From Xiphophorus maculatus (Eukaryota > Chordata > Actinopteri > Cyprinodontiformes > Poeciliidae), in assembly GCF_002775205.1 (NCBI RefSeq), contig NC_036448.1:4924572-4988571 (forward strand): a DNA stretch of 64,000 nucleotides, written 5' to 3'. Position numbers and translations under genes: made by a program. The notes under the pieces were generated by a model. That model was not told the origin of the DNA. It did no database searches and worked only from the letters and a program-made list of their open reading frames with translations. Positions 586 to 63,064 of the stretch are shown piece after piece. Position 1 is the stretch's first letter, and every line of letters begins with the position of its first letter.

Positions 586-1437
586 AAAGAAAAACAAAAC
601 AAGGGTGGGTGGAGGGGCGCAGGACGGGGGTCCAGAGTCCAAATAACAACAAAAAACAACCCAACAGCGTGGGCGGAGACACAGGAAGGAGCCAAGAGTC
701 CAAAAACAACAGAAAACAACCCATCAGGGTGGGCAGAGGCACAGGAGATGAAACCCGCGGGGAAAGTCCGGCGGGCGTACGTCGCGTGGGAGGTCCGGCA
801 GGCGTCCGCGGCACTGGAGGAGGTCCGGAGGACATCCGCGGCACCAGGAGGTGCGGCGTAAAGACAGAAACAGCACGATGACACCAAATGAGACGAGGAC
901 CTGACAAGGGTGGGTGGAGGGGCGCAGGACGGGGGGCCAGAGTCCAAATAACAACAAAAAACAACCCAGTAGGGTGGGCGGAGGCACAGGAAGGAGCCAA
1001 ACGTGGGTCCGGCGGGCAACGTCGGTGCTGGGGCCGGGCCCCTGGAGGCTGGTCCGGAGGTCGACGTCGGCACAGAGGCCAGGCTGTGGGAGGCGGGTCC
1101 GCCAGGCGACGTCGGCGCAGGGACCGGGCCACAGGAGGCGGCGACAAGGAGTCTCTGGGAGAATCTGGAGGAGCACTAGGAGGCTGGTTCTCGGGAGGAG
1201 CCCTAGGGGGCGACGAGGAAACATTGGGTCACTAGGGAGCTCGGAGGAGATGCTAGGGAGCTCGGCGGGAACGCTAGGGAGTTTGGAGGGGACGCTAGGA
1301 AACTCGGAGGAACTAGGAAGCTCTGAAGGGGCCGAGAACCCACTAACTGGGCCCGAAGGCTCACTTACGGGGACAGGCCATGCCATCAGCCGCGCCCCCT
1401 GTCGGCCCGGTGTCAGGCGGCCGCCTGGCTTAAGGAG
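586..1437 (-). repeat. GC-rich dispersed repeat module with short 21-bp minisatellite
   Basis: This very GC-rich block, unlike the AT-rich flanks, contains two copies of a segment beginning AAGGGTGGGTGGAGGGGCGC (about 600 and 904, roughly 305 bp apart). It also has a few degenerate units of a 21-bp minisatellite (about 1236-1330). In reverse complement it matches the GC-rich and minisatellite parts of the 34 kb and 37 kb duplicates, including the boundary text around GTAAGTGAGCC. It interrupts the BEL/Pao coding frame near 1437, after the residues LPRLELMGALIGARLGYS, and replaces the rest of pol. No known element class was recognised. Long ORFs on both strands here follow from composition and from repeat units that are multiples of three. 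Confidence 0.6.
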
Positions 1438-4400
1438 GCTGTATCCTAATCTTGCTCCAATAAGTGCACCCATGAGCTCCAAGCGAGGTAATGTCATTTT
1501 CTTTAATGGTGCTACTCGTGACTTGGAGGCCACAAAACTGGTAATAGTCTCTCCTAGGTTGTTTTGTCCTTGAAGATATGCCACAGCACCGTAAGCCTTT
1601 TCACTTGCATCACAGTAGACATGCAACTTTACAGTGTGTGATTCTTTGTTGATCTCAGTGTGGTACCACCTGGGAATAGACACCAGGTGTAACAGTGGTA
1701 ACTCCACACACCACTGCTCCCACTTCTTTTCTAAGTCAGTAGGTAATGGTTCATCCCAACTCAGTCCCTTTTCCCACATCTCTTGGAAAAGGCACTTTAC
1801 TCGGACTGTAAAAGGAGTAAGAAACCCAATAGGGTCGAATATACGGGCTGATGTTCCTAGTACACTTCTTTTTGTATTTTCTCTGTCTTTCAAAATGTCC
1901 ATTAACCCCCTTTGATCAAACACAAAATCATCGTGTTCCGGTCTCCAAACTAGTCCAAGTACTTTAAGCACATTTCCACTGGACTCTGTATCACCAGTGA
2001 GCTCTACTCCATTCTCTTTCCACATGGCTTTCAGATCAGGTGAGTTGGTAACCCATTTGCAGAGGTTCATGCTTGCCTGAGAGAGAATGTACTTTGCTGC
2101 AGTTGTCATGTGAAGAGCATCCTGCACAGTAGGTGAGCTTGAAATAAAGTCATCTACATACATAGAGTCTCTGAGAGCCTGTACTGCCCTTGGCTGTTTT
2201 CTTTCAAATTGTTTGAGATGTTTTCTGATGGTGGCAGCAAGCAAGAATGGGCTGGGAGTTACTCCAAAAAGAATTCTTTTCATCCTCAGGACGCGCACCT
2301 CATTTTTCCAGTCCTCAGCTAAAGGTCTGTGCATCCACAAGAACCTGACAGCATCTCTGTCCTTTTCTGCTAGTGAGATTTGAAGAAAAGCCTTAGTTAT
2401 ATCAGCAGCAAATGCTATCTTGTGCAATCTGAACTTTATGAGCACATCTAGCAGGTTTGGGTTCAGGTTAGGTCCAGTGTACAGACAGTCGTTGAGGGAT
2501 GGACTGTTTGCCTCATGTGAGGATGCACCAAATACCACTCTAAGTTTGGTTGTGGCCTTTTCTTCTCTTATTACAGCATGATGGGGCATATAATATTTCA
2601 CAGTCTGTTGATCCATTTCTGGTTTTCCATCTGCAACCTCCTCACAGATACCATTTTGAAGATAGTCTTCTATTACATCGTTGTATCTGGCAAATAAATT
2701 TACATCAGTCTTCAGCTTTCTTGTTAGATTCTCAAAGCGTTTCTTCGCTACCCTGAAGTTGTCTGGAAGCTGGTCTTTGTCACATTGCCAGGGAAAAAAA
2801 ACTTTGTACCTTCTGTCTTCAAATGTTGTTGTTTGTTCAAAACGTTGCATAATTTCTGAGTCCTCTGGGCTTTCTGACTGTTTATTTACAATACCCAGGG
2901 ACTCCACCTCCCAGAATGCATGCAGCTGCTTAGACAGCTGGGTGTCTTCGTTCAAACTAATGTGCATACACGTGGTGTCTGTAACACTGGAGGTAGTCAC
3001 TGGTCCCTGTAAAGCCCATCCAAAAAGGGTTTCAACTGCCACTAATGAATCTGTAACCCTTTGGACCTTTCCAGTAACAGCCTGCCAGTAGTAATCTGCT
3101 CCTATTAACATCTGCAACTCTTGTTCATTAGCACCCTCTAGTGGAAAGTCTCCAAGCTGCAGTCCTCTTTTCTTAATCTCTGCTTGAATGGGCTCAGTTG
3201 GTACCTTTATTACAGCAGTGCACACCTCAGGGGCCTCTACAGCATCTATTTCAATTTTCCGTTCAGTGTTCCACACATTTTCAAGTTGAACTCTCACTAT
3301 GTTGCGTTTCTTTACTACAGGACTGGTGGAACCAAAAACATGGAGGTTTAGTGTCTCTTGCCTCACAACTGGCAGTCCTAGGGCTCGGACAATGTCTCTG
3401 TGAACAAAACTACGCTGGCTACCTCCATCTAACAGACAGCGAGATATTTTTCTCTCCTTTGGTCCTACACCCCATGCCTTAACCATTTGGAGCAATACTG
3501 TGTTCTGAGTATTTGTCTTCACTTTGACTGAGCTGGTCAACGAAGACAACACAGCCTCTGCATTTCCACTATTGCTGGTACTGTCGACTTCTGGTTTAGC
3601 TTCAGATTGTTCACAAACTGACAAGTGGTGTTTTCGATTGCACTGTCTGCACAAAATCTTCACTCTGAAGTATTTCGCAATATGTTTCGGGCCCAGGCAG
3701 ACAAAACACCGTCCAAGCCTTTTCAGTTTCTCCCTGCGTGCACTTATTGTAAAACCATGACAGTTCTCTGGTTTATGGTCATTACCGTCACAAAACACAC
3801 AGGTTTGTGGCACGACTCTGGCTGTGTGCAAAGCAGTCGCTGATGGGATGCTCCACTTTCTGGGTTGATCACAGGCAAAGGATGGCTTACCCACATGCTT
3901 GTGTTGTGTGCTCGGGCTCTTCAATGTGTGGCCTGGTCTGGTCAGCAGAAGCGCCCGTTCTCTGCTTTGCACTTCATTTTGCAGAAACTGAATCAATTCT
4001 GGGACTTTCCATTCGTTAGTTGAGTTTTGTTGCCGTGTATAAGCAAGTGCTATGTCTTCTGGAATAAGCTGTAGCAACACTGGACAAAGGAGACAGCCGT
4101 AAGTATCACTTTGCACTCCAAGAGACTCCAAGCTGCGTATCTGGATCTCACATTCATCATAAATGTGCCTCAAAGCTGCAACATCAGATGATCTTCTCAC
4201 AGGTGTCAAGTTCAGCAATTTAGACATATGAGCACTTATCACAATATCCTTCCTTCCAAAACGATTCTGGAGTAACTCTATTGCAGCATCATAGTTGACA
4301 TCTGTCATTGTCAGTCCTGCAATAGTCCGAGCAGCTGCTCCAGTTAGGTAAGATCTCAGGTAAGTGAACTTGTCCGTCTTACATTGTCCATCATTTCTGT

Positions 4401-4860
4401 GAATGGCTGATTCATACTGTGACCAGAATTCCTGCCATTGGCTTATTTCTCCATCATACTTGATTATCGTTAGTTTGGGCAGTTTAACCGTCTGTTTGGA
4501 TTGTGATGAAAATGAGCCGTTGTTTACGTCACTCACACGCGCTCTCAGGGTGTCTGTAGCGGTCTCCTGCAATCCAATAACGTTGGTGGTGCGAACCTTC
4601 CAAACGAGAATCCGGTCCGTGTAATCCTGCGAGTTCGTTATCTCAGTGTCCAAGTCTTCAATTGACGTTTCATCTTCTATGCTCTTGTCCAAATCCAATA
4701 AAATGTCCTCCTTAGAAGATAAAACTGCCAGGAACTCACGCAGTCTATCCATATCTGGACTCTCTATGCCCACCTCATCCTCTAGTCGAGTTAACAGCTT
4801 CGTCGTTGCTGTTCGGATAGTCGACCGTTTCCTCTTTAATCGCTCCAGTCCTTCCATCAT
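1437..4860 (-). mobile_element. BEL/Pao LTR retrotransposon gag-pol, 3'-truncated
   Basis: A long open frame on the minus strand has BEL/Pao domains in order. A charged N-terminal Gag region starts at an ATG pair near 4860. A DUF1759-type Gag segment follows (YDGEISQWQEFW, about 4,480-4,250). Next come CCHC-type knuckles (CVFCDGNDHKPENCH and CFVCLGPKH), a DUF1758-type aspartic protease with LLDGGSQRSFV, and a reverse transcriptase with the YVDD catalytic box near 2150-2161. A Pao-type RNase H region containing TLPRLELMGALIGARL ends the recognisable part. The frame is open throughout, so the insertion is fairly young. The remaining RNase H, the integrase and the 3' LTR are missing. At about 1437 the sequence changes abruptly to the GC-rich module, and translation into that module is not element coding sequence. 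Transposition without outside help is not expected. Confidence 0.88.
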
Positions 4861-4923
4861 GTTGGCTGCTAAACTGAGCCTTAGCTTCACTTCGTTCAGA
4901 AAAATAAAAAAAAATCCTTATTC

Positions 4924-8185: not shown

Positions 8186-11100
8186 TCAGTGAGGGCGGCT
8201 GCTCGACTCCGAGGCCCTCCGCTGCCGGGGGGTGCTGTGTCCGTTCGTGAAGCCGTTCTGACGCTTGGTCTGTCCACCGTTCAGAATGTCTTGGATGTGC
8301 TGGACGATCAAGTTGATGGCCACTGCACAAAACAGGAAACAGTTACGTGGACCGCAAAAATTGGCTTCAAAAAGTATTTTTTGGGACTGAACTGATGCAA
8401 CTAACATGGCTTCCATGCCCTTTTCTTTTCTTTTTTAATGAACATGTTTGTGTTTGTAAAACTCCAGGGTGGTGAACTCCAGATTTTGTATTGGATCCAC
8501 TTCCAATACAAAATCTGAGGCACAGTATTGGCCGATACTGATCCAATTCAGAAACAGGAGTGCTGAATTGACTCGAAATGTTTCGGGGGTTTCTTTAAAT
8601 CCAGACATAAATGTACTGAATTACCAATTTACTTGATAACTCTGCACCAGTACAGCACACCAACAGCTTCACAAGCTTGGTCAAAAATGTAAAAACAACA
8701 CCTTTTAATGTATTCAGTCAGTGGAATTGGGAGTAGAACAGCTGATCTAAAACAAATAAACTGAAACTGATAAAAATAAAAAATAAAAAGTTGGCTACTG
8801 TGGTCAAACATGTAAAATCTCAAAGTTACATAATGTCAAAAAAAAAACACCTGTCAGGTGCATCAGTGCTAGAACCGAGCCTGGACCCAAATTTTAAAAA
8901 ACAACAACAAAAAAAACAGATTAGATTTGAGTTACAGAGAGCAGCACACAATAACGCAGGAGAATGTTTACATTTTCCTTGTAGGGCAAAGTTAACACCC
9001 TCAGCCATCCTACTGTTGGTCTACATAACAATCAGTCTTGTCTTACCAAGGTTATCTGCTCCTTTTGGAATAATCAAGTCTGCATACTTCTTTGTCTAGA
9101 AGGAAAAAAAAGTTCAAGATAAAGCAAGTCAAAACATTTTCAATGCAGCTCAAATTAAAGCTATAATCAATCTATATTTTGTATTGAAACAAGCCAAAAA
9201 CAATGGAGAAAGAAAATAAATCGCAGAAAAACACCACCATCTATTGGATCATCTCTGCAACTGCAGCACTGATTTTCTACAAACACTGTGACCAACATAC
9301 TAAAAATTTGAAAACATCAGTTGTTTTGCCAATTGGTCAATTATTAGTGTTGGTCATTATGTACCCAATTTTTGAAGGAATTGAAAGGAGCATCTTTGAC
9401 AATTTACATTTTATACAGGTTGATTTATCTTCTAATATTAAGATAGTGTGAGAAATTTTGATCATCAAAAATCGGTATCTATGATTCTTGACTATACAGA
9501 ACTTAAAACAAAGCAAAAAACTTGAAACGATAAATAAAAGAAGAAAAATCCTTGCATTGTCACTTACCGGTAAACAGAACTCCTCAAAGGCTGGCTTTAC
9601 AAAAGTAATATACTGACTCAGCACTTGTTCAAGATCTCTGCCACGCTCATTAATGTCCCTCAGAACTGGGGGGGGAAAAAAAAGGCACAATGACCACATA
9701 AGATATTTGCAAGACACCCCTGTGGAATCCCACCCCTTTCACTACTGCTGGTTACCTCAGTGTCTTACTAAGCATTGTTCAGATTACTTTTAAACAAGTG
9801 ACAACAGTGCGTGTCCAATCGGATCTTTTTCTATACACCTCGGCGCGAGAGCCGCGTGTCTGGGTCTGTGTCAACAAACAGCTTCATCTGGAACAGATCC
9901 CTGATTTCCTGAGAGTAGAACATGAGGATGCCCTCAAACAGGACCACGTCGGCCGGGTACACCGTAACAAACTCCTCTTTCCTGGAACAACACACAGAAA
10001 AAAGTTGCCTTTTCTCTGTGGCTGGAGGGGAAAACAACAACTGGAGATCGATTACAAAACCCGAGCTCAGAGGCAAAAAAAGAACATGTTCCTTTCAGGT
10101 CAGGAACTTGTTTATGAAAACACTGTCCTATGAGAAACTACAATACTGGGAGGTGCTGAAGAAACAGGATCTGGGCAGAGAAAGGAGGAAACGCTTACCT
10201 GGAATGAGTAACAAAGTCGTAAACTGGGATTTGCACTGTCTCTCCTTCAAGTATTTGTCTGAGCGTTTGCATGATTAGATCACTGTCGAAGGCATCTAGA
10301 AAAACCAAAAAAAGGCACAAGTTTGGTTATGAGTTTGTTTACTGTTTTTTCACCACCACCTAACTTTCAAAAGAACTTTTAGAAGATTTTTTTTTTTTTT
10401 TTTGCATATTTGTTGAAATTGTCACCATTTTGTGACAACCTGGTACGAGACGGATTATCTCAATAGAACAACCAATCAGAGCCTGTAGGCGGGTCTTAGT
10501 GCTGTCAATCACCCCCCGCGTGGCACTGTTCTTCCCCCTCTTCCTCCCTGCTGTGCTGCAGCTATCATAGCCTGCTATGAATGCTAAGGCTAGTTTGCAT
10601 GGCCACTAATGGCAAACTTTTTTTAACAACATTAAGTTGTTTCTCCAACAGCGCATTTAGCAACGCATACACAAGCATGATTGATAGCACTGAGATCCTC
10701 CTCCTGGCTCTGATTGGTTCAGTTTGACCAGGAGTGCTGCATTTCTTCAGACAGAAATATTAACTCAGGGAGAAAATGGAGGAGCTTGACATGTCACGGC
10801 ATTCTAAAAAAACAAAACATGGGAAAAATATATTTATAAAAATTACATACTGCTACTTCAATATGGGTGAAAATCTGCCATTTTGAAAAATGCTGCAAAC
10901 ATTTGACACAAAGTATAAAGTAGATTGTTTGCACTTTCGTTTCTTTTGACTGAAGTCCTAACTGGCAGTTTAGCCAGTTTCTCCTTTCTGTTTGAAGGAT
11001 AGTTTTGTTTATTTACAGAGACTTCATAACCTTTTTTTATTTTGGATTTATTTATTTTGGATATTTAAAATGTCTTCCAGTTAAATATTCTTTGAGAAAT

Positions 11101-14187: not shown

Positions 14188-20281
<6,094 letters not shown>

Positions 20282-32680: not shown

Positions 32681-33785
32681 ACCATCTCTTTTGAGCTCAC
32701 CGTGGCACCACAGTGCTGTGAGGCTAATGGCCCAAACCAAGATGGGTCCTTGATGAGCTGTTTGGTCTGGGGTTTGAATGTTCTCTCTGTGACTACAGAA
32801 GGTTCTCTCTGGGTACTCCCGTTTTCTGTCACAGTCCGAAAACAATTTGGTCGCTTGAAATTTCTAAATAAAAATAACAACTTAAAACTGATTGATTCTT
32901 TATTGTCAGGCGTGTCTGTGTTTCCCTGTGATGGACTGGTGACCTGTCCAAGCCGTGTCATGCCCAGGCCACGGCAAACTTGAGAGACACACCGGTGACC
33001 TTGCGATCTTTAAAAGTATCATGTGAGGATGGAAAACAAATGGATGGATTATTTTATAACATATCCAGATGTGCAATAGAGTACATCTATGTCCCTACAG
33101 AGGACAGACTGATGAGCGAGAGGCTGACTGAGAGAGGCCAGGCTGAGACTTGTTCTGACAAGGTGGAGGCAAGAAAGTCAGCAGGAGAAACTCAGAGGGG
33201 AGCCGTCAGTCACAGCAGGGTACGACCACAACATGCAGAGCAGAAACACAAACAGGCACCTGCTTAGAATCCAGCAGCAGCACAGATACACACACGTAGA
33301 TACTGCACCGCTTCCTCTTTTGTTTGTTCGCTTAATAAATCTAAACAGGTTTCATAAATCTACAACTGTTTTATACAACCTTTAGGTCACGCATGAAGTT
33401 AAATCTGTTTTATCCTGGTTATAGTTGGTCTTTTGATGCTTTAGGTATGCTGACTTCTTATGCAGAAGGATACTTAATGTTATATTTAAAAAAGCTTGCA
33501 GTGTAAAAAAAAAAAGCAATAGAGGAACTCTATAGATGTTTGTTTTTAAGAACAGGGCAACATTTGAGTATTTTCAGTTTATTAAAATATAAACAACATC
33601 AGAAAGGTACAAATATTACTGGGTAATTACATGTTACGGGTAGTTAAAGCAGGATGGGCCGCCAGGCTTAAAATACACTGAGGGAAACCCTGATAAAAGT
33701 GTCTTAATCTGTACATCACTGCCCACTTAATAATGATATTTTTTTAAATAAGCTCTCTAAGAGTATACATATATACATATATATA
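32681..33785. other. Intergenic DNA with repeat tails
   Basis: No gene seen. The text CCTGTGATGGACTGGTGACC (about 32,925) followed by GGATGGAAAACAAATGGATG (about 33,028) resembles the 3' tail of fish LINE/SINE repeats. A short (TA)n-like run lies at 33,764-33,786, at the edge of duplicated copy A. Confidence 0.4.
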
Positions 33786-34036
33786 TTTCTAGCTCCTCTC
33801 CAAAAGCACCTTAATCACTTTCGAGAGGAGGGGCTGGAGAAACCGTCGCATTAGATCTTTTTACCCGGTCTTTGCCTACTTCCTTTCCTTTTGATAAAGG
33901 TAAATGAAGCCCCTTCTGAACATGATGATGTAGAAGCAGTCGTGATAGTTTGTGGACTCATTTTAAGCGATTAAAAAAAAGAAAAGACGTTTGATACGAG
34001 ACGGAACTACGAAATTTAACTACGAAAAAACATAAC

Positions 34037-35180
34037 TCAACTAGAAATCATAGTGCAGCAAATAGAACCTCCAGCCCCTGCGTCCTCCACTCCTCCGGTC
34101 GTCACCGCTGTGGCTGCCGCTCCCACGCCCCCAGCAGCCGTCGCTCCTAAGCCTTCTCCAGCCCCTCGGCGAAGAGAGCACACTATCGCCTTCGCTCTGG
34201 TCCCCATGATGATGGGTTTCCAGGCGGTCGCCAGCCAGGGGGCGCCAGCCAGGGGGCGCGGCTGATGGCGTGGCCTGTTCCCCGTAAGTGAGCCTTCGGG
34301 CCCTGTTAGTGGGTTCTTGGCCCCTAAAGAGCTTCCTAGTTCCTCCGAGTTTCCTAGCGTCCCCTCCAAGCTCCCTGGCTTTCCCTCCGAGCTCCCTAGC
34401 GTCTCCTTCAAGCTCCCTGGCTTTCCCTCCAAGCTCCCTAGCGTCTCCTTCAAGCTCCCTAGCGTCCCCTCCAAGCTCCCTAGCTTTCCCTCCGAGCTCC
34501 TTAGCGTCTCCTCCGAGCTCCCTAGTGTTCCCAATGTTTCCTCGTCGCCCCCTAGTGCTCCTCCCGAGAACCAGCCTCCTAGTGCTCCTCCAGATTCTCC
34601 CAGAGACTCCTTGTCACCGCCTCCTGTGGCCCGGTCCCTGCGCCGACGTTGCCTGGCGGACCCGCCTCCCCCAGCCTGGCCTCTGTACCGACGTCGACCT
34701 CCGGACCAGCCTCCAGTGGCCCGGCCCCAGCACCGACGTTGCCCGTCGGACCCACATTCGGCTCCTTCCTGTGTCTCCGGCCACCCTGCTGGGTGCTGCT
34801 CAAATCTTTCATCTTCAGATGAGCTCTCTGAAGAAACATCGCTGTTTTACATCGTCTTCAGAGACGATGTCAGAACCTGAGGACTCAAATCTTCCATCTT
34901 CAGATGGGCTTTCTGAAGAAACAACACTGTGTTTTTCATCGTCTTCAACGAAATCTTCAAATCCAAAATTCTTGTATCGTCCATCTTCAGATGTGCTCTC
35001 CTTTGAAACACCACTGTGTTTTACATCGTCTTCGGCGACGACGTCAAAATCAAAGTGTTCTGAACTTTCGTCAGTTGATCTCTCTGCTGAAAGGTCTTCA
35101 TCTTTAATCCGATATCCCAGGAACTTTTCTACTCCCTTCGTAACAAGATACCCAAGGCCCCAACCGATGGTTAAAATCAT
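34037..35180 (-). pseudogene. Repeat-protein ORF, copy A (frameshifted)
   Basis: This is the minus-strand homologue of the copy B ORF. From ATG 35180 it encodes the hydrophobic segment ILTIGWGLGYLV, then three acidic units (EDGRYKNF, SSESPSEDGRF). At about 34,850 it reads CTGTTTTACATC where other units have CTGTGTTNTACATC, a 2-bp loss that changes frame. Beyond it the GC-rich part and the 9-unit heptad array stay open in the shifted phase to the same end (ICCTMISS, stop 34037). One lesion therefore accounts for the whole break. Unless translation shifts frame, only the N-terminal part would be made. No known family was recognised. Confidence 0.55.
34347..34535. repeat. 21-bp minisatellite, 9 units
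   Basis: Nine tandem 21-bp units of the type (A/G)AGCTCCCTRGC followed by TTTCCCTCC or GTCTCCTYC. On the minus strand they encode 7-residue units such as GSLEGKP and GSLKETL. The homologous array in copy B has 33 units. Confidence 0.92.
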
Positions 35181-35842
35181 CTTGACTGTAGTTGAAATGG
35201 TTTCTAAAATCACTGTTCGAAATCGATTATCATATTCCAAATGATAATAATATTCGCTTGAACCTTTATGACATCATCGATGAGAACACCGATGACATGA
35301 TGATGTCACACGACCTGTGCCAGGTTCTTGTTTGTTTTAGTTGCTATGGAAACACAAGGAGTTATGTATGAGATAAAACTACTGTCAATTAAAAATGCAT
35401 GCGTAGACATCTAAATTTGTGAATTGAAGTCAGTAAATGTGCATAAATGTAAGTTTTGTATTTGTCCTGTTTTTCAACTCATACGTACGTGTAACTTTAC
35501 CTATGAGAATACTCGTAAACAAATAAATTAATACAAGTGTTTTTGATTGGTTTTATAGAGAGTAAGTATTTTTCCAGAAGTTAGACACACATCAGTCACA
35601 TTTAGAAACTGGCTCTAAACCATCTGCTTGATCTATTTTGAACTGGGAGTGAGGAGGATCCTCTTCAACTTATCATGTCTTGCCTTAATTACTTGCTCTG
35701 TTCATAAGGAAAACATTGGCTGGCTGACTTCTCTGGTTTTCACTGCTTAGCTGTGTCATTTATATATTTCCTCTGTCCTGTTGTACAAATGGTTTTTTTA
35801 AACATTTTATCTCCAAAAATATAGAAATGTTATGGATGAAAT

Positions 35843-36937
35843 AATGTGTTTACAATCATGAATTTAAAGTGTAGCAGGAAGCCGGAGCACCCGGAGAGAA
35901 ACCTGCAAACTTCTTTTTGATATTTTATTCATGAAATGTAATTACAAAATCTATTTCTGACATTTTGTAATTAAATGTCAGAAATACATTTATTATTTCA
36001 GAGCCTTTTTGGGAAATAAAGGTTCTAGTGGCCTTTATTTAATAGGAGTAGACAGGAAAGTGGGTTATGAGAGAGGGGATTCAAACCCAGGACTTTGATG
36101 CTGCAAGGCAACAGTGCTCCCAACTGAGCCACTGTCCAACAGTTTTATTCTCAAAATTAATGTTTTATTAACATCTAAGGAGAATTTAGAGGCCAATTAA
36201 CCAAACAGTCATGATGTTAGACTGTGGCAGGAAGCCGGAGCGCCCGGAGAGAAACCTGCAAACAGGAAACCTGTCAATCTTTTTACCCTTTTGTTAGAGA
36301 TTTTTTGGTATTATCATTTTATTCTTACTTTAGTTCACATTCAGCCTATAGATCATTGTGATTTTCTGTTTAAAGTGTTCTCTTCCTTACGTGTGTATGG
36401 AGGTCACTACTGTCGGTTCAACTTTACGCACCTCCTAATTTAGTAACTACCTGTGAACAGTCGTATTTTGTTTTATTGACAGTACTGACCGAGATTTGAA
36501 CCGGGCTCAGACCTTTGATTAGATATCACATCTGGAACTGGGTTGTTAGATGTTTGGGTTAGAAGCTTTACGACCTCTGTTGTGTTTCCTGACTGCCCCC
36601 TTGCCTGTTCTTCTTTGACAATAAAAACAGGAGTCCTTGTGAGGGCAGATCAGAACGCTCTGTGGAACTGATCGGAGGAGAAGTTTGATAGAGCCTTCCC
36701 TTTTACAAAAGCTCCACGTAAAATTCATATACGTTGTCTGTGGTTCTTTCTTTTATTTAGGTTCGAAAGGAAAATACCTATCACCTTTGATCCCAGAAAA
36801 TTTTGTGTCTCTTGTCATGAATGTTTAAGTAACTGAACTCAACAACACATGTTCTGTCCCAGTTACTGAAACGTCTCCAGCTTCAAAATGCTCGGTTATT
36901 ATCTCATCAGGGATATTTTCTTCAACCAAATTAGAAA
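35843..36937. other. Spacer between duplicated copies
   Basis: About 1.1 kb unique to the spacer. It contains a SINE (35995-36141) and two copies of a GGAAGCCGGAGC...GGAGAGAAACCTGCAAAC phrase (about 35,879 and 36,231) typical of a dispersed fish repeat. There is a nested inverted repeat with arms ATTTCTGACATTT and AAATGTCAGAAAT at about 35,952-35,984. No gene seen. Confidence 0.5.
35995..36141 (-). mobile_element. tRNA-derived SINE
   Basis: On the minus strand a box A-like TGGCTCAGTTGGGAGC is followed at tRNA spacing by a box B-like GGGTTTGAATCCC, then a non-tRNA body. These are the RNA polymerase III promoter elements of a SINE head. No functional tRNA cloverleaf is proposed. Confidence 0.6.
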
Positions 36938-37187
36938 TTTCTAGCTCTTCTCCAAAAGCACCTTAATCGCTTTCGAGAGGAGGGGCTGGAGAAACCGTCG
37001 CATTAGATCTTTTTACCCGGTCTTTGCCTACTTCCTTTCCTTTTGATAAAGGTAAATGAAGCCCCTTCTGAACATGATGATGTAGAAGCAGTCGTGATAG
37101 TTTGTGGACTCATTTTAAGCGATAAAAATTAGAAAAGACGTTTGATACGAGACGGAACTACGAAATTTAACTACGAAAAAACATAAC

Positions 37188-39185
37188 TCAACTAGAAATC
37201 ATAGTGCAGCAAATAGAACCTCCAGCCCCTGCGTCCTCCACTCCTCCGGTCGTCACCGCTGTGGCTGCCGCTCCCACGCCCCCAGCAGCCGTCGCTCCTA
37301 AGCCTTCTCCAGCCCCTCGGCGAAGAGAGCACACTATCGCCTTCGCTCTGGTCCCCATGATGATGGGTTTCCAGGTGGTCGCCAGCCAGGGGGCGCCAGC
37401 CAGGGGGCGCGGCTGATGGCGTGGCCTGTTCCCCGTAAGTGAGCCTTCGGGCCCTGTTAGTGGATTCTTGGCCCCTAAAGAGCTTCCTAGTTCCTCCGAG
37501 TTTCCTAGCGTCCCCTCCAAGCTCCCTGGCTTTCCCTCCGAGCTCCCTAGCGTCTCCTTCAAGCTCCCTAGTGTTCCCTCCAAGCTCCCTAGTGTCCCCT
37601 CCAAGCTCCCTAGCTTTCCCTCCAAGCTCCCTAGCGTCTCCTTCAAGCTCCCTGGCTTTCCCTCCAAGCTCCCTGGCTTTCCCTCCGAGCTCCCTAGCGT
37701 CTCCTTCAAGCTCCCTAGCGTCTCCTCCAAGCTCCCTGGCTTTCCCTCCAAGCTCCCTGGCTTTCCCTCCGAGCTCCCTAGCGCCTCCTTCAAGCTCCTT
37801 GGCTTTCCCTCCAAGCTCCCTGGCTTTCCCTCCGAGCTCCCTAGCGTCTCCTTCAAGCTCCCTAGCGTCTCCTCCAAGCTCCCTGGCTTTCCCTCCAAGC
37901 TCCCTGGCTTTCCCTCCGAGCTCCCTAGTGTCTCCTTCAAGCTCCCTAGCGTCTCCTCCAAGCTCCCTGGCTTTCCCTCCGAGCTCCCTAGCGCCTCCTT
38001 CAAGCTCCCTGGCTTTCCCTCCAAGCTCCCTGGCTTTCCCTCCAAGCTCCCTGGCTTTCCCTCCGAGCTCCCTAGCGTCTCCTTCAAGCTCCCTAGCGTC
38101 CCCTCCAAGCTCCTTGGCTTTCCCTCCAAGCTCCCTAGCTTTCCCTCTGAGCTCCCTAGCGTCTCCTCCGAGCTCCCTAGTGTTCCCAATGTTTCCTCGT
38201 CGCCCCCTAGTCCTCCTCCCGAGAACCAGCCTCCTAGTGCTCCTCCAGATTCTCCCAGAGACTCCTTGTCGCCGCCTCCTGTGGCCCGGTCCCTGCGCCG
38301 ACGTTGCCTGGCGGACCCGCCTCCCGCAGTCTGGCCTCTGTACCGACGTCGACCTCCGGACCAGCCTCCAGTGGCCCGGCCCCAGCACCGACGTTGCCCG
38401 TCGGACCCACATTCGGCTCCTTCCTGTGTCTCCGGCCACCCTGCTGGGTGCTGCTCAAATCTTTCATCTTCAGATGAGCTTTCTGAAGAAACATCACTGT
38501 GTTTTTCATCGTCTTCAGAGACAATGTCAGAATCAGAAGACTCAAATCTTTCATCTTCAGATGAGCTCTCTGAAGAAACATCGCTGTGTTCTACATCGTC
38601 TTCAGAGACAATGTCAGAATCAGAAGACTCAAATCTTTCATCTTCAGATGAGCTCTCTGAAGAAACATCACTGTGTTCTACATCGTCTTCAGAGACGATG
38701 TCAGAACCTGAGGACTCAAATCTTCCATCTTCTGATGAGCTCTCTGCAGAAACATCAGTGTGTTTTTCATCGTCTTCAACGAAATCTCCCAGTCCAAAGT
38801 AATTATGTTGTTTATCCTCAGATGAGCTCTCTGCAGAAACATCAGTGTGTTTTACATTGTCTTCAGAGACGATGTCAGAACCTGAGGACTCAAATCTTCC
38901 ATCTTCAGATGGGCTTTCTGAAGAAACAACACTGTGTTTTTCATCGTCTTCAACGAAATCTTCAAATTCAAAATTCTTGTATCGTCCATCTTCAGATGTG
39001 CTCTCCTTTGAAACATCCTTGTGTTTTACATCGTCTTCAGAGACGACGTCAAAATCAAAGTGTTCTGGACTTTCATCAGTTGATCTCTCTGCTGAAATGT
39101 CTTCATCATTAATCCGATATCCCAGGAACTTTTCTACTCCCTTTGTAACAAGATACCCAAGGCCCCAACCGATGGTTAAAATCAT
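37188..39185 (-). CDS. Unrecognised repeat protein, copy B (665 aa from first ATG)
   Basis: The frame is open from about 39,330 to the stop at 37188; the first in-frame ATG is at 39185. Layout: a hydrophobic segment right at the start (MILTIGWGLGYLVTKG), which could be a signal anchor. Then seven acidic Ser/Glu/Asp-rich units of 29 residues (EHSDVSSESSSEDERFESS type, with casein-kinase-2-like sites). Then a Gly/Arg-rich GC-rich stretch, and 33 heptads (GSLEGKP, GSLKETL, GSSEGKP). The tail is Ala/Gly-rich, ending ICCTMISS. Both repeat units (87 and 21 bp) are multiples of three, so copy-number change keeps the frame. No known domain was recognised. The antisense strand is also open for 557 codons, and the GC-rich half is a dispersed repeat. 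It may therefore be a fast-evolving gene or simply repeat DNA without stops. Confidence 0.4.
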   Translation of the reverse strand: MILTIGWGLGYLVTKGVEKFLGYRINDEDISAERSTDESPEHFDFDVVSEDDVKHKDVSKESTSEDGRYKNFEFEDFVEDDEKHSVVSSESPSEDGRFESSGSDIVSEDNVKHTDVSAESSSEDKQHNYFGLGDFVEDDEKHTDVSAESSSEDGRFESSGSDIVSEDDVEHSDVSSESSSEDERFESSDSDIVSEDDVEHSDVSSESSSEDERFESSDSDIVSEDDEKHSDVSSESSSEDERFEQHPAGWPETQEGAECGSDGQRRCWGRATGGWSGGRRRYRGQTAGGGSARQRRRRDRATGGGDKESLGESGGALGGWFSGGGLGGDEETLGTLGSSEETLGSSEGKLGSLEGKPRSLEGTLGSLKETLGSSEGKPGSLEGKPGSLEGKPGSLKEALGSSEGKPGSLEETLGSLKETLGSSEGKPGSLEGKPGSLEETLGSLKETLGSSEGKPGSLEGKPRSLKEALGSSEGKPGSLEGKPGSLEETLGSLKETLGSSEGKPGSLEGKPGSLKETLGSLEGKLGSLEGTLGSLEGTLGSLKETLGSSEGKPGSLEGTLGNSEELGSSLGAKNPLTGPEGSLTGNRPRHQPRPLAGAPWLATTWKPIIMGTRAKAIVCSLRRGAGEGLGATAAGGVGAAATAVTTGGVEDAGAGGSICCTMISS
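37498..38190. repeat. 21-bp minisatellite, 33 units
   Basis: Thirty-three consecutive 21-bp units, with no partial unit, between GTTCCTCC and GTTTCCTCG. Variant units occur in a higher-order pattern: blocks of three to five units such as GGC-type, GGC-type, AGCGTCTCCTTC-type recur, suggesting expansion by unequal exchange of blocks rather than single units. It is homologous to the 9-unit array in copy A. Confidence 0.93.
38457..39060 (-). repeat. 87-bp tandem repeat coding acidic units, about 7 copies
   Basis: Units starting CTCAAATCTTTCATCTTCAG recur every 87 bp (for example 38,544 to 38,631). The left units are nearly identical and the right units more diverged. Copy A retains three. The unit length keeps the minus-strand frame. 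Confidence 0.85.
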
Positions 39186-39885
39186 CTTGACTGTAGTTGA
39201 AATGGTTTCTAAAGTCACTGTTCGAAATCGTCTCTCTATCAAAGTGTTGTACCTCCAACGGCGTTGAAAAGCAAACTGAGAATTCTTGGATTCCAAATGA
39301 TAATAATAATGGCTTGAACCTTTATGACATCATCGATGAGAACACCGATGACATGATGATGTCAGGTTCTTGTTTGTTTTAGTTGCTATGGAAACACAAG
39401 GAGTTATGTATGAGATAAGACTACTGTCAATTAAAAATGCATGCGTAGACATCTAAATTTGTGAATTTAAGTCAGTAAATGTGCATAAATGTAAGTTTTG
39501 TATTTGTCCTGTTTTTCAACTCATACGTACGTGTAACTTTACCTATGAGAATACTCGTAAACAAATAAATTAATACAAGTGTTTTTGATTGGTTTTATAG
39601 AGAGTAAGTATTTTTCCAGAAGTTAGACACACATCAGTCACATTTAGAAACTGGCTCTAAACCATCTGCTTGATCTATTTTGAACTGGGAGTGAGGAGGA
39701 TCCTCTTCAACTTATCATGTCTTGCCTTAATTACTTGCTCTGTTCATAAGGAAAACATTGGCTGGCTGACTTCTCTGGTTTTCACTGCTTAGCTGTGTCA
39801 TTTATATATTTCCTCTGTCCTGTTGTACAAATACTTTTTTTAAAACATTTTATCTCCAAAAATATAGAAATGTTATGGATGAAAT

Positions 39886-49702: not shown

Positions 49703-63064
<13,362 letters not shown>

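Follow-up and report, generated by a model that had tools for sequence, protein, structure and literature searches.

A duplicated block and its two minisatellites

We analysed a 64,000-nucleotide window of the Xiphophorus maculatus genome (assembly GCF_002775205.1, contig NC_036448.1, positions 4,924,572 to 4,988,571 of the forward strand; coordinates below count from its first letter). It holds two direct copies, A and B, of a block with 21-bp and 87-bp tandem arrays, and a third occurrence of the GC-rich part of that block (Table 1). On its minus strand, copy B carries an open reading frame (ORF) of 665 amino acids (aa), whose status as a gene is the subject here.

Table 1. Features of the block, of its third partial copy and of the adjoining retroelement relic.
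Feature	Position	Strand	Length	Remarks
Copy A	33785-35842		2058 bp	self-blastn and global alignment
Spacer, copy A to copy B	35843-36936		1094 bp	alignment flanks
Copy B	36937-39885		2949 bp	self-blastn and global alignment
21-bp minisatellite, copy A	34342-34532			9 units
21-bp minisatellite, copy B	37493-38187			33 units; 147-bp (7-unit) periodicity
87-bp minisatellite, copy A	34799-35057			2 full units and one 85-bp unit; 2 bp short, frameshift
87-bp minisatellite, copy B	38454-39062			7 units
GC-rich block, copy A	34061-34798	+		64-66% G+C; about 34220-34794 matches third copy
GC-rich block, copy B	37191-38453	+		61-64% G+C; about 37401-38449 is the putative element
Third element copy (C)	600-1440	-		ends approximate; 964-1428 aligned to A and B
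Open frame, copy B	37188-39185	-	665 aa	read as probable composite, not gene
Counterpart frame, copy A	34815-35180	-	121 aa	array 2 bp out of frame
BEL/Pao gag-pol relic	1441-4917	-		DUF1759 and Peptidase_A17 above Pfam cut-off; RVT_1 below

An initial annotation, made from the sequence alone, had placed two direct copies about 1.1 kb apart at this site. Both indeed lie there, with a spacing of 1094 bp and 38 mismatches in 2043 aligned bases (about 1.9%, summed over the alignment segments). The mismatches amount to 6/594 in 39885-39291, 5/54 next to a 51-bp indel, 5/123 between the ATG and the array, 9/259 within the 87-bp array, 8/540 in 38453-37410 (4/266 + 3/191 + 1/83), 1/222 in 37409-37188 and 4/251 downstream of the frame (37187-36937). 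The near-identity reaches non-array sequence, as the first two and the last of these figures indicate, and the block is a local segmental duplication. We also considered whether the spacer had been part of a larger, tandemly duplicated unit, and rejected this because the flank past copy B is unlike the spacer past copy A. The spacer itself contains two similar short stretches, at about 35868-35910 and 36222-36263, which we take to be perhaps the tails of short interspersed nuclear elements.

The initial annotation had counted 9 against 33 units in the 21-bp array and 3 against 7 in the 87-bp array, and these numbers were recovered in both copies. The copies differ in length by 891 bp (350 + 504 + 51 + 1 - 14 - 1), with 350 bp in the 87-bp array, 504 bp in the 21-bp array, +51 and -14 bp ahead of the ATG, and one 1-bp indel in each direction. 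The roughly 39 bp that had been added to the unit differences to close the gap therefore represent the net of the 51- and 14-bp indels plus 2 bp. These 2 bp belong to the 87-bp array, whose difference is 4 x 87 + 2; copy A has a third unit of only 85 bp, whose start matches unit B5 (36 bp) and unit B3 (30 bp) of copy B and whose end matches unit B6 over 47 bp. In copy B, strings of units recur besides the seven-unit periodicity of the 21-bp array, as block amplification would leave. The multi-unit block repeats of copy B and the out-of-register 87-bp array of copy A point to slippage or unequal exchange as the likely source of the differences.

The GC-rich element

Inside the ORF of copy B, the G+C content steps from 0.398 (38454-39185) to 0.635 (37371-38453) at the end of the 87-bp array. 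The GC-rich sequence beyond this step, which carries a 45-bp array and the 21-bp array, occurs a third time in the window, in the orientation opposite to A and B; the 45-bp array is present there too, and the 21-bp array has 3.8 units. Against copy A, this third copy aligns in two pieces that overlap in the array, one of 371 bp at 92% identity and one of 199 bp at 89%. It is 1 bp short relative to A and B at B-coordinate 37430, and 1 bp short relative to A where the 21-bp array begins, after which the frame hits a stop. Its flanks differ from those of A and B, and it has neither the 87-bp array nor most of 33785-34220. Within copy A, 34061-34220 is likewise unmatched in the third copy, and the match stops at the start of the 87-bp array. 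Since the GC-rich part recurs without the 87-bp array and most of 33785-34220, it is an independent unit, and its three copies in two contexts within the window suggest a transposon-like, dispersed and perhaps mobile element. By-eye inspection, in which the ends are approximate, recognised neither element termini nor a target-site duplication. A 97-bp direct repeat, 95% identical, lies inside the third copy (599-695 and 904-1000).

The third copy adjoins a BEL/Pao relic on one side and, on the other, a 194-codon plus-strand open frame (1-585) that runs off the window edge; this frame has no Pfam match above cut-off, and its end resembles a ubiquitin-specific protease. The frame of the relic (724-4917, minus strand) is either broken by the GC-rich element or joined to it, and its Peptidase_A17 match stops at model position 146/162, at about the start of the element. 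The BEL/Pao Pfam domains are all confined to 1441-4917, and none was found inside the GC-rich part.

The 665-aa frame and its coding signal

The 665-aa minus-strand ORF reported by the initial annotation is present in copy B, and extends from stop to stop over 713 codons (37188-39329). Its first 244 codons cover AT-rich sequence and the 87-bp array; the remaining 421 lie in GC-rich DNA, and about 350 of these are antisense to the putative dispersed element (37401-38449, expanded array included). The predicted product's heptad array, together with most of its Gly/Arg stretch, is antisense to the sequence that is present a third time in the window, and the last part of the frame (37188-37400) is partly GC-rich and within the window is matched only between copies A and B. 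The frame had been expected to survive array expansion, which proved not to be the case: because the 87-bp arrays differ by four units plus 2 bp, copy A is frameshifted and its ORF ends within the 87-bp array, and its 21-bp array is never read. The frame is thus not kept between the paralogues, and the interruption that the initial annotation had named as counter-evidence if present in close relatives is seen here between paralogues of one genome.

The substitutions were then considered by codon position. Among nine full 87-bp units (seven of copy B and two of copy A, the 85-bp unit being left out), 62 parsimony changes are distributed 21/21/20 over positions 1/2/3 (p=0.98); the equal rates that the initial annotation had named as evidence against a gene are therefore found in the part tested. 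A neutral simulation left the 87-bp array free of stops with P=0.18. Across all 42 of the 21-bp units, bases other than the most frequent one number 15/66/28 at positions 1/2/3, with no third-position excess. The comparison of nonsynonymous and synonymous rates between copies, which had been suggested as a check, gave 8 nonsynonymous and 2 synonymous codon changes from the ATG on, a nonsynonymous-to-synonymous (N/S) ratio of about 1.1 on only ten changed codons. Furthermore, 11 of the 12 stop-free runs of at least 200 codons in the window overlap an element copy, on both strands (one of the eleven, of 1397 codons, is mostly BEL/Pao pol), and plus-strand runs of 557 and 461 codons traverse the same DNA as the minus ORF. 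Pfam matches to the 21-bp array were obtained in two minus frames, all below the curated cut-offs. Since they are as strong in the one frame as in the other (DUF7310 at 4.9e-9, CsbD at 1.4e-8), they stem from repetition and were dismissed as artefacts.

No hit came from scanning the window with Rfam (gathering threshold) or for tRNAs. The phage, viral and prokaryotic collections exclude animal genomes by design, so that their results say little: blastn against phage records gave no match, viral contigs contained no exact match to a 30-base array pattern, prokaryotic genome contigs gave no matches, and the 160-aa 5' peptide had three pattern-matching stretches in viral contigs, none of them recovered by tblastn at E<=1e-3.

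Interpretation and setting of the block

We consider it likely, with a probability of roughly three in four, that the locus is a duplicated, mostly noncoding block of variable number tandem repeats (VNTRs) rather than a gene, and ordinary in kind. A block of 2-3 kb would have been duplicated locally and, at about 1.9% mismatches, fairly recently. This block would have been a mosaic of two parts: AT-rich sequence that ends in the 87-bp minisatellite, and a GC-rich block in which the transposon-like dispersed element contributes minisatellites of 45 and 21 bp. Afterwards the arrays would have diverged, in one or both copies, by gain or loss of units through slippage or unequal exchange. The 665-aa frame of copy B would then traverse unrelated pieces, and would be kept open largely by two features: any stop-free unit is multiplied in frame when its length is divisible by three, and stop codons are scarce in most frames of GC-rich DNA. 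A functional 665-aa protein is probably not translated from it, and the block as a whole seems to be without function. The initial annotation had offered two readings, a fast-evolving secreted or membrane repeat protein or noncoding VNTR DNA open by chance. The latter fits better, although the AT-rich 5' part could be the relic of a real exon, since 39329-39063 is more open than its shuffles (P=0.003).

Several observations weigh against the noncoding reading. The mismatch density is higher in the ORF start and 87-bp array (14/382) than in the rest (24/1661; p=0.010); selection was considered as the cause and set aside, as an N/S near 1 and exchange between units account for the excess equally well. 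The N/S comparison, however, has little power. The 51-bp difference between the copies upstream of the ATG preserves the frame, and TATAAA occurs on the minus strand at 39599 and 39806, the former in sequence identical between the copies. None of 3000 shuffles of copy B reached 665 or 713 codons, the longest being 639; these were made segment by segment with the array structure kept and array columns permuted without keeping dinucleotides, and they allow for the choice of frame in copy B, not for picking the most striking locus. Among 20000 shuffles, the 5' 267 bp (39329-39063) stayed open in 0.3%; the 123 bp from the ATG did so in 3.6% of shuffles, and the last GC-rich segment in 3.0%, the other GC-rich segment having P=0.19. 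By codon position, the composition of the 87-bp array resembles that of coding DNA, with 50% G at position 1 and 47% A at position 2, and the 5' peptide was modelled as one helix over residues 17-68, with a block pLDDT (predicted local distance difference test) of up to 92. Finally, the dispersal of the element rests on a single extra copy, as the other two come from the local duplication.

Much of this evidence would also suit a real or recently dead exon at 39329-38454, encoding a membrane helix and acidic Ser-rich 29-aa repeats, with its 3' end joined to the antisense strand of the GC-rich element; copy A would be a frameshifted pseudogene, and copy B might make a truncated or extended protein. 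The 5' openness, the composition of the 87-bp array, the modelled helix, the TATAAA shared at 39599 and the in-frame 51-bp difference all favour such an exon, whereas the even codon-position changes, the N/S of about 1.1 and the frameshift of copy A disfavour it. So does the lack of relatives at E<=1 in Pfam (39063-39329) or the PDB (38850-39329), the best PHROG match being at E=0.015 and of unknown function. The helix, moreover, is weak evidence, as it comes from a single-sequence model of 38454-39329 with a mean pLDDT of 51.9, too poor for a fold search. We regard this exon as a tentative alternative; it overlaps the noncoding reading, which allows a dead relic there, and the odds given here are accordingly neither exclusive nor meant to sum to one. 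It is very improbable that copy B is an intact, fast-evolving gene for a 665-aa repeat protein with functional length polymorphism: the shuffles fell short of the full ORF length, the unit lengths are multiples of three and the differences are rich in nonsynonymous changes, but 8:2 is the neutral expectation, about 350 of the 665 codons lie on the antisense strand of a dispersed repeat, and further frames through the arrays are open too, on both strands. Also very improbable is a young lineage-specific gene in which an exon for an acidic-repeat membrane protein became fused to the antisense of the dispersed element; if this were true, the VNTR of the element would now set the length of the protein.

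The plus strand might instead be the meaningful one, the element being the Pro-rich 3' internal part of a retrotransposon, from pol to the 3' long terminal repeat (LTR), and the minus ORF its antisense shadow. The same sense strand of the third copy continues the BEL/Pao pol frame, and in the first aligned segment the changes of the third copy against A and B number 6/4/2 and 7/5/1 at minus-frame positions 1/2/3, so that in the in-register plus frame the excess falls on position 3. However, the 7/5/1 distribution lacks significance (p=0.12), the counts in the second segment are 5/3/3 against A and 5/3/4 against B, the pol A17 domain is cut short, no pol lies beside the A and B copies in the frames tested, and no LTRs were identified, though none were systematically sought. 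We consider this reading unlikely.

The noncoding VNTR block would be of a known kind, and arrays inside mobile elements have precedents in the literature. Retand Ty3/gypsy elements of plants are reported to carry tandem repeats and antisense ORFs between pol and the 3' LTR (PMC11963269); the present locus resembles them in having internal arrays and, following a pol frame, antisense ORFs, but the plant elements have defined LTRs, whereas the neighbour here is a broken BEL/Pao pol, no LTRs were identified and the link may be accidental. The Cg_HINE non-autonomous Helentrons of the Pacific oyster are reported to contain central satellite-like repeats (PMC7492417), and there too a dispersed unit takes short tandem arrays to new places; in the present case, in contrast, the ends and superfamily are not established, and two of the three copies come from local duplication. 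Among the papers listed by the literature search, none describes this element in its title, which is no proof of novelty, as an animal repeat library was not compared. Minisatellites in local segmental duplications commonly show near-identical flanks, differences in unit number and block amplification. The present case differs in that two unrelated arrays in one block form a long composite frame. It illustrates that repeats divisible by three may yield long open frames without other signs of coding, and even matches to repeat-rich Pfam models at low E-values; gene predictors may call the 665-aa ORF. Should this ORF prove to be transcribed, it would offer a test of how genes arise from a repeat's antisense strand.

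Short minus-strand frames at and past the duplicated end (36825-37128) resemble decayed coding sequence, with no Pfam match in three of these frames. Elsewhere in the window, exon-like matches were found to the uridine kinase (PRK) family at 9337-9738 (minus strand) and to the aldehyde dehydrogenase family at 17710-18216 (plus strand); alongside the BEL/Pao and DDE_3 relics, they fit an animal genome. The DDE_3 relic is a transposase fragment at 55570-55965 (minus strand), which we presume to be Tc1-like.

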